DNA of 64,000 nucleotides from Sphingorhabdus rigui (GTDB lineage Bacteria > Pseudomonadota > Alphaproteobacteria > Sphingomonadales > Sphingomonadaceae), in contig NZ_JACIEA010000001.1 of assembly GCF_014196595.1 (NCBI RefSeq), forward strand, positions 1,420,546 through 1,484,545, in the 5' to 3' direction. Both the position numbers and the translations under genes were made by a program. Within the stretch, counting starts at the first letter, position 1, and the number at the start of each line of letters is the position of its first letter. The notes under the pieces were generated by a model, which saw nothing but the letters and a program-made list of their open reading frames with translations, was not told where the DNA came from and made no database searches. Of this stretch, positions 3,913 to 7,132 are shown piece by piece.

Positions 3913-3988
3913 GGGCCCTTAGCTCAGTCGGTAGAGCAACTGACTTTTAATCAGTAGGTCGCTGGTTCGAACCCAGCAGGGCTCACCA
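3913..3988 (+). tRNA. tRNA-Lys (anticodon TTT)
   Basis: A 76-nt cloverleaf reads by eye. The acceptor GGGCCCT pairs with AGGGCTC (one G-T pair). The D-arm contains AGCTCAGTCGGTAGAGC. The anticodon stem is ACTGA/TCAGT around loop CTTTTAA, with anticodon TTT. The T-arm is CTGGTTCGAACCCAG, and discriminator A is followed by an encoded CCA. The insertion carrying the peptide cluster begins immediately after it, and tRNA 3' ends are common integration points. Confidence 0.97.
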
Positions 3989-4296
3989 TATATTTCAATG
4001 GTTTAGCTACATTCCCTTCGGGGAAACCGATATTTAGGTCGGACAAAGGTTTAACCTAGGTTTCACCGTTGCGTCGAAGCTATTCGGCCGGCTGCCGAGG
4101 TGAAACGAGCACTTACACCCCTCCCCCCTTCAAAACCTCTGCTCATCCAGACCCCATGGGGGTGCCCCCTTTTCTGGCTAATGGGACCTAGAGTTCCTTT
4201 TTACATATCGTTCTGCTCGCCCGGTTAGATGCACTCTGTTCTAGGCTTATTAGGATGGTAGGTAGACATTCTATGCACCCTTGCGGAAGTATACCT
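3989..4296. other. Non-coding stretch between tRNA-Lys and the XRE gene
   Basis: About 300 bases with no convincing reading frame. Composition is patchier and richer in A/T than the flanking genes. A G/C-rich palindromic patch (CCCCATGGGG followed by GTGCCCCC and four T, around 4153-4174) could form a hairpin. I found no second copy of the tRNA 3' end here or after 5772, and no integrase remnant. It is likely the junction of the small insertion with the core chromosome. Confidence 0.4.
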
Positions 4297-4554
4297 TCAG
4301 CATTCTTGGTATCCATGTAGAGCCTTTGACGTCTCGGCTATCAATGCGAGGGGATCCCCGCCTAATGCATCCATGATTGTTAGAAATTCGATCACATCCA
4401 GCCGTCGTTCCCCACATTCAAATTTTGAGACGAACGACTGCGGCTTGTTTAATTTGTGGGCTAGCTCGATCTGACGCATACCTGCCTTTTTGCGCGCGCC
4501 TACTAATAATGCGGCGAATACCGAGTAAGGTTGGCTGTAGACCGATTTTTTCAT
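4297..4554 (-). CDS. XRE/Cro-type HTH transcriptional regulator
   Basis: An 85-aa protein with a helix-turn-helix domain over residues ~15-70. RKKAGMRQIELAHKLNKPQS contains the first helices, and FVSKFECGERRLDVIEFL has the typical recognition-helix and capping residues of the Cro/C1/XRE fold. ATG 4554 (MKKSV) is chosen because AAGGGGG precedes it; a TTG at 4581 would add nine residues and run into the palindrome. It is transcribed away from the precursor-peptide gene, and the perfect palindrome at 4582-4602 lies in the shared promoter region, so it probably represses both itself and the peptide operon. A ligand-sensing domain is absent, so the inducing signal is not evident. Confidence 0.85.
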   Translation of the reverse strand: MKKSVYSQPYSVFAALLVGARKKAGMRQIELAHKLNKPQSFVSKFECGERRLDVIEFLTIMDALGGDPLALIAETSKALHGYQEC

Positions 4555-4581
4555 CCCCCTTCTATTTATAACTTCTTGCAA

Positions 4582-4602
4582 AATATCCCATATTGGGATA
4601 TT
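4582..4602. promoter_or_regulatory. Perfect 21-bp palindrome, probable XRE operator
   Basis: AATATCCCA-TAT-TGGGATATT: two exact 9-bp arms around a 3-bp centre, lying between the divergent XRE gene (start 4554) and the precursor-peptide gene (start 4639). A TTGCAA (4576-4581) directly before it and TATTCC (4599-4604) at its right edge, 17 bp apart, could be a weak sigma-70 promoter for the peptide operon; binding here would block it. The palindrome is seen directly; its use by the XRE protein is inference. Confidence 0.7.
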
Positions 4603-4623
4603 CCTTATGGAACCGAAACCTCT

Positions 4624-4629
4624 GGAGGG
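4624..4629 (+). promoter_or_regulatory. Shine-Dalgarno sequence fixing the precursor-peptide start
   Basis: GGAGGG sits 9 nt before ATG 4639. No comparable site precedes the longer in-frame start at 4531, which would also overlap the XRE gene and operator. This is the main reason for calling a 77-aa precursor. Confidence 0.75.
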
Positions 4630-4638
4630 AAAAATCTA

Positions 4639-4872
4639 ATGTCAGCCGTTCTATTAATCACACCACTCATGCTCGCTACCGCGGCACCAACATTTGACAT
4701 TCAAGCACCTGTTTACAGCCACGCTACACAAACAACAGCCGGTGCAACGCTCGCACAATACCAGACTATGTACTGCTCAACGACCACGACATTTAACGGC
4801 ACGCAGACATTTACGGCCAGTGGGAAACCCTTCGATAGCGATAGCGACAGCGACCAACAGGGTGATTGCTAA
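4639..4872 (+). CDS. Putative graspetide precursor peptide (77 aa)
   Basis: A small protein with an uncharged hydrophobic N-terminus (residues 1-17), a Thr/Gln-rich middle, and a C-terminal putative core. The core has a Thr block (Thr48-51, Thr55, Thr57, Thr59), a GKPF turn (62-65), and an acidic block FDSDSDSD with Asp66, 68, 70, 72 and 76, ending in Cys77. Graspetide cores pair Thr/Ser hydroxyls (or Lys amines) with Asp/Glu carboxylates through ATP-grasp ligases, and a Thr strand facing an Asp strand across a Gly-Lys-Pro turn suits a hairpin of several ester links. The DNA of the acidic block is a run of GAT/GAC-AGC hexamers (4834-4854). The ligase gene starts 6 bp downstream. I do not recognise this exact precursor family. 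The leader/core boundary and cleavage site are not visible; the N-terminus could also be read as a weak signal peptide. Confidence 0.75.
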   Translation: MSAVLLITPLMLATAAPTFDIQAPVYSHATQTTAGATLAQYQTMYCSTTTTFNGTQTFTASGKPFDSDSDSDQQGDC

Positions 4873-4878
4873 AGCTTA

Positions 4879-5772
4879 ATGTTACTTTTGTTTTCAGGCT
4901 CGTATGACGGGACAGTCGATAGGATTGTCCTGTCATATGGTGATGACGTTTTTCGTTTCAACTATGATCTTTGGCAGGAATATGACCTGTCTTTCACAGA
5001 GCACGGCTGGATAATTCGAAACCCCGCCGGGCGCGAGATCACTTCAGAGACCGTCACGGGAGCATATTGGTGGAAAGCTTTTGCATTTTTCACCCAAGAC
5101 GACAAATATGTTAAAGCAGAAGTAAAGTATACCTTGCGTGATGTATACGGCTGGTGCCAAGTGCGTGGCATAGCCAAGGGCAACTCAATTGATTACCACA
5201 ACAAGCTGGGGAAAATGACAATCCTAGGGCTTGCAAGGGAATATTTTTCTGTCCCTGACACATTAGTTACATTTCGAAAATTTAATGCGTCAAGATTAGA
5301 AGGTTCTCAAGTCGTAGCGAAAAGCTTGGCATCCGAGCTATCGGACAGCAAGGGCGCCTTGATGACCACGCAGGTGAACGTTGCAGAGATTGATCCTTCA
5401 TTTCCGTGGTACTTGCAATCCAAGATAGACAGCGCGTGGGACGTGACCGTATTTTTTTGCAACGGGCAGTCGTTTCCATTCCGTAGAAGTCGCGCGGGGC
5501 TTTCTGGACTTGACTGGCGAGCAGAACAAAATTTTGAAACGCTGGTTGAAGAATGGGAGCCAATGGCTCTGGGCAACACTTTCGCCAACAAAATTCTCAA
5601 CTTGTCCAATAAACTTGGCGTCGAGTTTGGGCGCTACGATTTCATGACGGTTGGCGATACAGACGACCTAGTGTTTCTTGAATTTAACGCCAATGGGCAG
5701 TGGGTGTTTTTGGATCCCTTTGATAAGCATGGGCTTCTTGATTGCGTAACAAACTGGCTTCGATCCGCTTAA
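4879..5772 (+). CDS. MvdD-like ATP-grasp ligase (graspetide maturase)
   Basis: A 297-aa ATP-grasp protein of the ribosomal-peptide maturase type. Residues ~1-110 form the pre-ATP-grasp region with FRFNYD (26-30) and AYWWKAF (62-68), equivalent to the WxR-like segment of MvdC/MvdD relatives. VVAKSL (145-150) carries the nucleotide-binding Lys148. YLQSKIDSAWDVTV (178-191) and DWR (212-214) follow. The C-terminal FGRYDF (250-255) and FLEFNANGQW (266-275) supply the Mg-binding Glu268/Asn270 and the NxNGQW hallmark of graspetide ligases. Such enzymes phosphorylate Asp/Glu side chains of a precursor and close esters with Thr/Ser or amides with Lys. It is about 20-30 residues shorter than microviridin ligases. 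The start has a poor Shine-Dalgarno and is probably coupled to the precursor stop 6 bp upstream. No transporter or protease gene adjoins. Confidence 0.88.
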   Translation: MLLLFSGSYDGTVDRIVLSYGDDVFRFNYDLWQEYDLSFTEHGWIIRNPAGREITSETVTGAYWWKAFAFFTQDDKYVKAEVKYTLRDVYGWCQVRGIAKGNSIDYHNKLGKMTILGLAREYFSVPDTLVTFRKFNASRLEGSQVVAKSLASELSDSKGALMTTQVNVAEIDPSFPWYLQSKIDSAWDVTVFFCNGQSFPFRRSRAGLSGLDWRAEQNFETLVEEWEPMALGNTFANKILNLSNKLGVEFGRYDFMTVGDTDDLVFLEFNANGQWVFLDPFDKHGLLDCVTNWLRSA

Positions 5773-5914
5773 GAGAAACGCCCGTTCTTCATTAGCACCA
5801 ATGGCACCGATTTGATTCTCTGGCGACGGTCACGACATTTCAGCTCATAATCGGCCTTTGCACTAAAGCCGTCCCGCTACGAACGGCGCAAGTTCAACGT
5901 TCCACGATGCCAGA

Positions 5915-7132
5915 CTAAGCCAGTCTCTCGAACGTTAGCCCCGCATGCGCCTCAAGCCGCTTGATTAGCTTATCCCCTAAAATCGTTGCTGGCGTCCAGA
6001 AGCCGCCCGGAACATCGTCAGGCACGTCTTTGGCAAGGCAGGCGGCGGCCTGAGACAGCATCTTTGCCGTTGATCCATAGCCCGGATCTCTGTCTCCCGT
6101 AACGCGGCAACGGATCGTTTCTCCCTTGGCCGTTGACCCGAGGAAAACAATGTCAAAATTCCCCTCAAGCTGCGCTTTTTCGCTTGGCCCCTCACCCGGC
6201 TTGGGCAAGACCATAGTTTCCAGCAGCCAGCGGATTGGGGGCACGGCCAGACCGATCATAAGGGCATTGGCACCCCAATGCGCCGCGCGCGCCTTTTGCT
6301 TGCCGGAACCGCCCTGGCCCGTCACCACGGCTTCCTCATACTTGAATTCAATGCCATAGCTGTTGTTGCTCAGGGCGTTTGACCGGTACACAACCCGAGT
6401 GTTGATACCCGCCATAATAAAAGGCGCGATCCAAGCGCCATAGACATTGTCATATGCGATCTTCACATCGGGCTGCGCGATAGTGAACCCATGATTTTGT
6501 GGGCAGAGGCTATAAGGGTCTTTAAGTTCGCGCCGCAGATCGGCGTCGCTGACCGCTTCCTTGACCATGTTAATCATGCTTGCGATGGTGCCGCCGGACG
6601 CGCCGCCCTTCATGCTGACAACCCGCATGTTTATCCGGTCACAACTATGCCCGAATTGTTCCAATGCGCCGCGTTGCAGGAAATGGACGCCCAGATCGGA
6701 CGGGATGCTGTCAAAGCCACAACAATGCACAATCCGCGCACCGCTTTTGATTGCGTCGGCTTCATGCCGCAATTGCATTTTGCGGATCCACTGCGGCTCG
6801 CCTGTTAGATCGCAATAATGGGTCCCCGTGGTGGCGCAGACCTGAACGAGCAAGTCACCATACAGCGCATAGGGGCCGACCGTCGACATAACGACAGTGG
6901 TCTGCGCACACATTTGCTTCAGCGCATCTTCATCGGCAGCGTCAGCAACGATAATCTCTATGCCCGGCAGTCCAACGGTATCGCGGACCTGCTTAAGCTT
7001 GCTGAGCGAACGCCCTGCGATAGCCCATTTTACCGATCCATCGGCGAACTGCTCTTGCATGTAGCGTGTGATGATCTGGCCCACAAAGCTGGTGGCTCCA
7101 TAGACGATGATATCAAATTTTTTATCAGCCAT
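5915..7132 (-). CDS. Saccharopine dehydrogenase-family NAD(P)-binding oxidoreductase (trans-acting enoyl reductase-like)
   Basis: A 405-aa protein with an N-terminal Rossmann nucleotide-binding motif (YGATSFVGQIIT, ~residues 12-23), an IAGRS strand and the CDLTGE segment typical of the saccharopine dehydrogenase C-terminal-like group. Members annotated in mycobacteria act as trans-acting enoyl reductases on lipid chains; others are uncharacterised. Start ATG 7132 (MADKKFD) is preferred over the longer frame because of a GGGGGA about 6 nt upstream. It is the last gene of the leftward acyl-CoA cluster, but the gap of ~90 bp to the preceding gene means co-transcription is only likely. A role in reducing an acyl or lipid substrate is inference. 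Confidence 0.75.
   Translation of the reverse strand: MADKKFDIIVYGATSFVGQIITRYMQEQFADGSVKWAIAGRSLSKLKQVRDTVGLPGIEIIVADAADEDALKQMCAQTTVVMSTVGPYALYGDLLVQVCATTGTHYCDLTGEPQWIRKMQLRHEADAIKSGARIVHCCGFDSIPSDLGVHFLQRGALEQFGHSCDRINMRVVSMKGGASGGTIASMINMVKEAVSDADLRRELKDPYSLCPQNHGFTIAQPDVKIAYDNVYGAWIAPFIMAGINTRVVYRSNALSNNSYGIEFKYEEAVVTGQGGSGKQKARAAHWGANALMIGLAVPPIRWLLETMVLPKPGEGPSEKAQLEGNFDIVFLGSTAKGETIRCRVTGDRDPGYGSTAKMLSQAAACLAKDVPDDVPGGFWTPATILGDKLIKRLEAHAGLTFERLA

Follow-up and report, generated by a model that had tools for sequence, protein, structure and literature searches.

The described diversity of graspetides, the ribosomally synthesized and post-translationally modified peptides (RiPPs) in which ATP-grasp ligases close omega-ester rings, is large: one survey lists 174 families (PMC8939145), and Carter et al. 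2026 predict 21,584 graspetides in 43 groups, defined as network groups at an alignment score of 70 (PMC13097080). As described in the latter source, rosaritide from Micromonospora rosaria (group 21) has S8, S9 and T11 joined to D22, D24 and D26 in three macrolactones and is made by a TIGR04187 synthetase with an obligatory partner, MirC; groups 27, 28 and 35 are described there as synthetase and precursor only. For fuscimiditide, a graspimiditide of group 13, an inner pair T7-D18 and an outer pair T3-D22 are given (PMC12291112, PMC13003496). Here we analyse a stretch of 64,000 nucleotides from Sphingorhabdus rigui (contig NZ_JACIEA010000001.1, positions 1,420,546 to 1,484,545; "the window"), in which a short gene cluster behind a tRNA-Lys gene had been predicted from the sequence alone to encode an XRE-type regulator, a graspetide precursor of 77 aa and an ATP-grasp ligase. 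We conclude that this locus is a minimal cassette for graspetide synthesis which mobile elements carry as cargo, and give this explanation, including the mechanism proposed below, a probability of roughly 0.8.

Conservation of the predicted precursor

A scan of GTDB contigs revealed 10 related loci, nine with a complete ligase gene (L013-L021, 40-93% identity) and one (L022) excluded from all counts, its ligase being cut by the contig end. A further member, L069 from the genome G1314, was found among 369 genomes of another class (225 bits with a 10-row profile); its ligase is 28% identical to that of the window, the same type of peptide is encoded directly upstream, and it serves as an out-of-sample test because it had no part in defining the core pattern described below. 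The original prediction would have been refuted by homologous loci lacking the small open reading frame (ORF), which is instead present in all testable ones: it lies directly upstream of the ligase gene in 9/9 of L013-L021 and, with L069 added, in 10/10 of the loci beyond the window that have a complete ligase region, and hence is not a chance ORF.

Alignment of the 11 precursors revealed 12 invariant positions (T8, P9, A13, H28, Q31, T55, T57, G62, P64, D66, D68 and D70), with Y26, T51 (Ser in L017), Q56 and F58 kept in 10 of the sequences. The leader, residues 1 to about 47, carries the motifs L-x-T-P-h-h-h-A and Y-[SD]-H-x-x-Q, and its T-P with the hydrophobic residues fits the leader motif Phhx(1,2)h described in PMC8939145. 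The core encompasses 20 residues that align without insertions in all 11 members, [TS]-x3-T-x-T-x4-G-x-P-x-D-x-D-x-D, and corresponds in the window to T51-x3-T55-x-T57-x4-G62-x-P64-x-D66-x-D68-x-D70, followed by the non-conserved D72 and D76. The strands of Thr and Asp residues proposed initially are therefore upheld for T51, T55, T57, D66, D68 and D70 and have to be given up for T48-T50, T59, D72 and D76. (The L021 row of the precursor alignments begins two codons before the ATG, and the first codon of the L021 ligase row lies inside a longer ORF.) When 376,411 bases (partly redundant records, without L069) were searched in all six frames for T-x-T-x(4,5)-G-x-P-x-D-x-D-x-D, these precursors alone were retrieved. 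The features that characterize a graspetide peptide, namely a precursor gene adjacent to the ligase gene, a conserved leader motif, and conserved Ser/Thr/Lys donors and Asp/Glu acceptors in the core (here Thr/Ser and Asp), are thus all present.

The precursor is under purifying selection. Only L013 and L014 form a pair whose dS is unsaturated; their precursors have nonsynonymous and synonymous rates of dN 0.072 and dS 0.833 (NG86), a ratio of 0.09 (0.21 by YN00), and the dN/dS of the ligase is 0.08-0.16; precursor pairs with the window have dS >2, and their ratios were therefore not used.

The ATP-grasp ligase as a putative graspetide synthetase

The profile searches with the window ligase reported four NCBIfam models, all of RiPP ATP-grasp maturases (TIGR04187, score: 62.6 bits, cut-off: 350; TIGR04185 (MvdC), score: 52.9, cut-off: 425; TIGR04184 (MvdD), score: 40.7, cut-off: 475; grasp-with-spasm, score: 30.3, cut-off: 230), and no Pfam family. 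The five PDB sequences that it matched are every one a graspetide synthetase, and so are the nine best rows for the predicted fold, which is closer to these enzymes (~16-22% identity to the solved structures over the fold alignment) than to RimK. The family, PDB-sequence and fold matches thus agree on both an ATP-grasp fold and sequence kinship with graspetide synthetases, in support of the original reading of the gene. The grouping with RimK-type enzymes that had been named as one possible refutation did not materialize, and a RimK-type ligase is ruled out by the sequence matches together with the fold ranking. The more specific label "MvdD-like" holds insofar as MvdD is among the matched families, but the protein falls under the MvdD equivalog cut-off and its best, still weak, score is to TIGR04187.

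K148, D212-W213-R214 (a "DFR"-type motif), D254, E268 and N270 are invariant in 11/11 clade members, and we take K148, D254, E268 and N270 to bind ATP and Mg. The DFR-type motif is named as critical for graspetide synthetases in PMC13097080. The ligase tree comprises 16 of the 20 outgroup loci; L011, L025, L026 and L028 were left out, having no ORF that passed the end-motif filter. Taken together, graspetide biosynthesis by this locus is well supported by the sequence comparisons.

Genomic context and distribution

Comparison with empty sites revealed that the cassette is a mobile insertion at a tRNA gene (Table 1). In four (L036-L039) of the 14 same-genus loci compared (L036-L049), the tRNA-Lys gene is followed by 137-150 bp and then by the window sequence from 5835, hence the ~1.8 kb between 4010 and 5834 is extra in the window. 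Three ORFs of this segment, and no others, were recognised as genes, namely those of the XRE-type regulator, the precursor and the ligase, the latter two separated by 6 bp. The layout of the original prediction was thus confirmed (tRNA by ARAGORN, regulator by its HTH_3 match, ORF coordinates and gap), and its "self-contained" three-gene system without transporter or protease turned out to be, literally, a small insertion.

Table 1. Features of the graspetide cassette and its insertion site in the window
Feature	Position	Strand	Basis
tRNA-Lys(UUU); 3' end is the insertion site	3913-3988	+	ARAGORN
Left end of tRNA-associated integrative element, ~200 bp	3989-4227		Aligned to L013, L014, G405, G427 and G398; boundary approximate
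Inserted segment, ~1.8 kb	4010-5834		Comparison with empty sites L036-L039
XRE-type (HTH_3) regulator	4297-4551 from ATG, or to 4581 from TTG	-	Pfam HTH_3
Candidate operator, AATATCCCA-TAT-TGGGATATT	4582-4602		Perfect 9-bp arms, between divergent genes
Predicted graspetide precursor, 77 aa	4639-4872	+	Alignments of 10 and 11 homologs
Putative graspetide synthetase (ATP-grasp), 297 aa	4879-5772	+	NCBIfam, PDB sequences, fold, alignment, tree

Related loci show similar settings. One of the four genomes with an empty tRNA-Lys site (G137) has its own cassette elsewhere. The L013 cassette lies within about 1.9 kb behind a tRNA-Asn gene; in L062 this tRNA gene and the right flank are immediate neighbors. 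A stretch of about 200 bp beside the tRNA is common to the window, to L013 and L014, and to G405, G427 and G398, three genomes in which the cargo is a different one. In G405 an island of ~19 kb at tRNA-Lys carries at its far end a 58-bp repeat of the 3' half of the tRNA (98%), beside a tyrosine integrase. The left end of this ~19-kb element (L071, G405:C15:100000-112247, and L054) is the part held in common with the window. Among the matches listed for the window's own genome there is no such tRNA repeat, so the element of the window is likely a remnant. Other copies of the cassette are found near an integrase, a tRNA-Ala gene and a resolvase (L021), near a resolvase (L018) or near a sub-cut-off terminase match (L020), and the most divergent one resides on what looks like a mobilizable plasmid, a contig of 8,199 bases (L070, G1314:C24) that encodes a Rep3 initiator, a MobA/MobL relaxase, a Phd/PemK-like pair and a resolvase. 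No mobile gene was seen in the flanks of L015, L016, L017 and L019, of whose genes only part was searched. The L014 locus (L056 in G137:C4) has the common left end but no adjoining tRNA, with an EF-hand gene upstream and a SIR2-like gene downstream; a SIR2-like start similar to that of L014 occurs in L072, beyond the tRNA-Asn cargo of G398.

The cassette is scattered over unrelated bacteria: the hosts of the contig-scan loci are two Sphingorhabdus-like genomes, Azospirillum oleiclasticum, metagenome-assembled genomes of a Methylococcus, of a member of Burkholderiales and of an alphaproteobacterium, and three uncultured bacteria. The cassette is rare (3/45 genomes of the genus), and in samples of genomes from the class, the phylum and other classes close members of the clade were found only in the window's own genome and in G1314. 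The matches in G137 and G416 lie on contigs equal in length (57,225 and 110,864) to those of L014 and L013, with which they were equated, and each was counted once. Neither INPHARED phages nor PLSDB plasmids contained a homolog detectable by tblastn at 1e-5 with one ligase as the query, and IMG/VR yielded none either in two scans at the protein level and one search with a DNA pattern; distant phage, plasmid or viral forms could have escaped these queries, which were a single ligase, an alignment of 10 rows and a single strict pattern. The window's genome has no second copy of the precursor at E<=1. In L016 and L017 a gene for a 163-aa protein (5915-6406 in both) begins 24 nt past the ligase stop, the other neighbors of the two loci being different; the L016 protein matched nothing in Pfam or PADLOC, and a fourth gene, e.g. 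for immunity or a partner, is possible.

An XRE-type gene is located upstream in divergent orientation in 8/11 loci; in L020 another small ORF intervenes. Seven of the eight XRE proteins were tested and exceed the HTH_3 cut-off, among them that of the window (31.5 bits, cut-off 23), and the eighth, that of L014, is 84.5% identical to that of L013. The palindrome anticipated by the original prediction was confirmed; it falls within the 87 bp that separate the divergent genes. Four distinct places of the window, this one included, have perfect 9-bp arms around a spacer of <=5. Both close relatives, L013 and L014, retain the palindrome, the latter with a single change. The sequence GGAGGG is read nine bases 5' of the precursor ATG; scans for promoters and terminators gave matches no more numerous than in shuffled sequences.

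Proposed mechanism

The XRE protein is probably an autorepressor that also represses the precursor-ligase pair: it would bind the palindrome and shut off both divergent promoters. Upon relief of repression, the precursor and a translationally coupled ligase would be made, and the ligase may dock on the conserved leader through the T-P-hydrophobic helix and perhaps also through Y-[SD]-H-x-x-Q. Very probably, the ligase then staples the peptide into a multi-ring shape via Thr-Asp side-chain joins. Using ATP, it would phosphorylate D66, D68 and D70 in turn, to be attacked by T51, T55 and T57, and three omega-ester rings would be closed across the G-x-P turn with a loss of 54 Da, leaving D72 and D76 free; the three-ester pattern is proposed because of the conservation of these residues. 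The pairing could be a nested hairpin (T57-D66, T55-D68, T51-D70) or interlocked as in rosaritide, between which the sequence does not decide. Leader removal and export, if any, would fall to host proteins. As a default guess, by analogy with microviridin and plesiocin, the product may inhibit a protease.

Alternative interpretations

Several observations weigh against a graspetide cassette. All family scores of the ligase are far under the curated cut-offs, and at position 190, in the [DE]-x-R motif, 16/16 outgroup ligases have Arg but 11/11 clade members Thr, so the catalytic pocket differs; this change marks a departure from the outgroup ligases, although the Arg is apparently not a published defining feature. 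The inserted segment contains no protease or transporter gene. The XRE proteins of different loci form groups without close orthology, and no XRE gene was recognised by eye in L018, L021 and L069, the divergent gene of L069 being Phd-like instead (25.7 bits, cut-off 29.8); the regulator is therefore not strictly part of the system and was apparently supplied by each element separately. The window precursor matched no NCBIfam family; for TIGR04186, the family targeted by TIGR04187 enzymes, there are weak matches from two of the 11 precursors (best E 0.0081). One could also envisage a ligase that modifies the peptide otherwise, by adding amino acids or by forming an amide with another partner in a RimK-like or PGM1-like fashion, with no internal esters. 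We consider this improbable, since the sequence matches are confined to graspetide maturases, the DFR-type motif is intact, and ring closure requires just such an arrangement, in which three Thr/Ser and three Asp residues stand at constant distances on either side of a turn.

It has also to be considered that the small protein is an unmodified exported, calcium-binding or toxin-like peptide and that the ligase acts elsewhere, as the N-terminus is hydrophobic and in some members has an A-x-A-like end, the D-x-D-x-D also looks like calcium-binding loops, and the window precursor gave a sub-cut-off match to DUF2946 (E 0.012). However, the residue at the signal-peptidase -1 position varies (A, E, Q, S) and is followed by Pro, whereas T8-P9 is invariant, which makes a Sec signal unlikely; T51, T55, T57 and G-x-P lie outside any calcium loop, and precursor and ligase genes occur together in 11/11 loci, so that we regard an unmodified peptide as highly improbable. 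In a further reading, the locus is a toxin-antitoxin-like or phage-defence module in which the XRE protein is the antitoxin and the modified peptide the toxic or defensive effector; this concerns the role rather than the chemistry and is compatible with a graspetide cassette. The HipB-like antitoxin models nearest to the XRE protein (30.9 bits, cut-off 71.65) and the mobile setting at tRNA sites, by an integrase, resolvases and a plasmid backbone, would fit such a role, but PADLOC recognized neither the ligase nor the precursor and gave the XRE protein no more than weak generic HTH matches, on which ground a known defence system was rejected, and the regulators are non-orthologous between loci; we therefore find it doubtful.

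Comparison with known graspetide systems

Our literature search found nothing pairing "graspetide" with "Sphingomonas", the main text of PMC8939145, as far as available, mentions neither "Sphing" nor "XRE", and for "ATP-grasp" with "RiPP" and "sphingomonad" the sole sphingomonad passage in the text retrieved concerns a lasso peptide. Loci of the window type may already be within one of the 43 numbered groups. We speculate, with low confidence, that they represent a distinct graspetide class. Its synthetases would form a clade whose active-site Arg has been rearranged; the class would depend on no partner protein, protease or transporter and would serve, within the producer, as a transferable trait of the element, e.g. 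by inhibiting a host or phage protease, switched by each element's own XRE protein. That predicted graspetides travel with small mobile elements devoid of export genes raises the question whether some of them act within the producer cell, and the Thr-for-Arg change offers a natural experiment on the synthetase active site. With its rigid core, its divergent clade and a mobile setting free of export genes, this is more than a routine new graspetide member.

The nearest solved structures, by sequence and by fold, are the synthetases of microviridin (MdnB/MdnC, AMdnB), chryseoviridin (CdnC), plesiocin (PsnB) and prunipeptin (PruB), with which the window ligase has the DFR-type motif in common; the window clade differs from these systems in the core motif, the leader motif and Arg190. 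Other ATP-grasp ligases of the sphingomonad family (e.g. L003 and L004) belong to the same superfamily and have a small precursor gene just upstream, but are placed outside the clade in the tree, and their precursors carry repeated TKT...E-[TSA]-D-D cores (L003:772-1116, L004:1092-1478), a different graspetide type in the same bacterial family. With the graspimiditides, as far as described in PMC12291112 and PMC13003496, the window cassette would have in common a leader-guided ATP-grasp synthetase and Thr-to-Asp esters round a longish loop, whereas graspimiditides have two nested esters, a 4-residue spacing of donors and acceptors, and an aspartimide-making methyltransferase, which the cassette lacks. 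The likeness to rosaritide, as described in PMC13097080, lies in the TIGR04187 kind of synthetase, the three Ser/Thr residues and the D-x-D-x-D acceptor triplet. The donor spacing differs (S-S-x-T in rosaritide, T-x3-T-x-T here), and rosaritide has the PpiC-like partner MirC and, in its cluster, a peptidase-transporter, neither of which is in the 1.8-kb insertion of the window; TIGR04500 was not scanned for in the other loci. Compared with the partner-dependent rosaritide system, this two-gene pair, with its rigidly conserved 20-residue core, would thus be the simpler peptide-stapling system and could serve as a tool for studying how three esters are placed.
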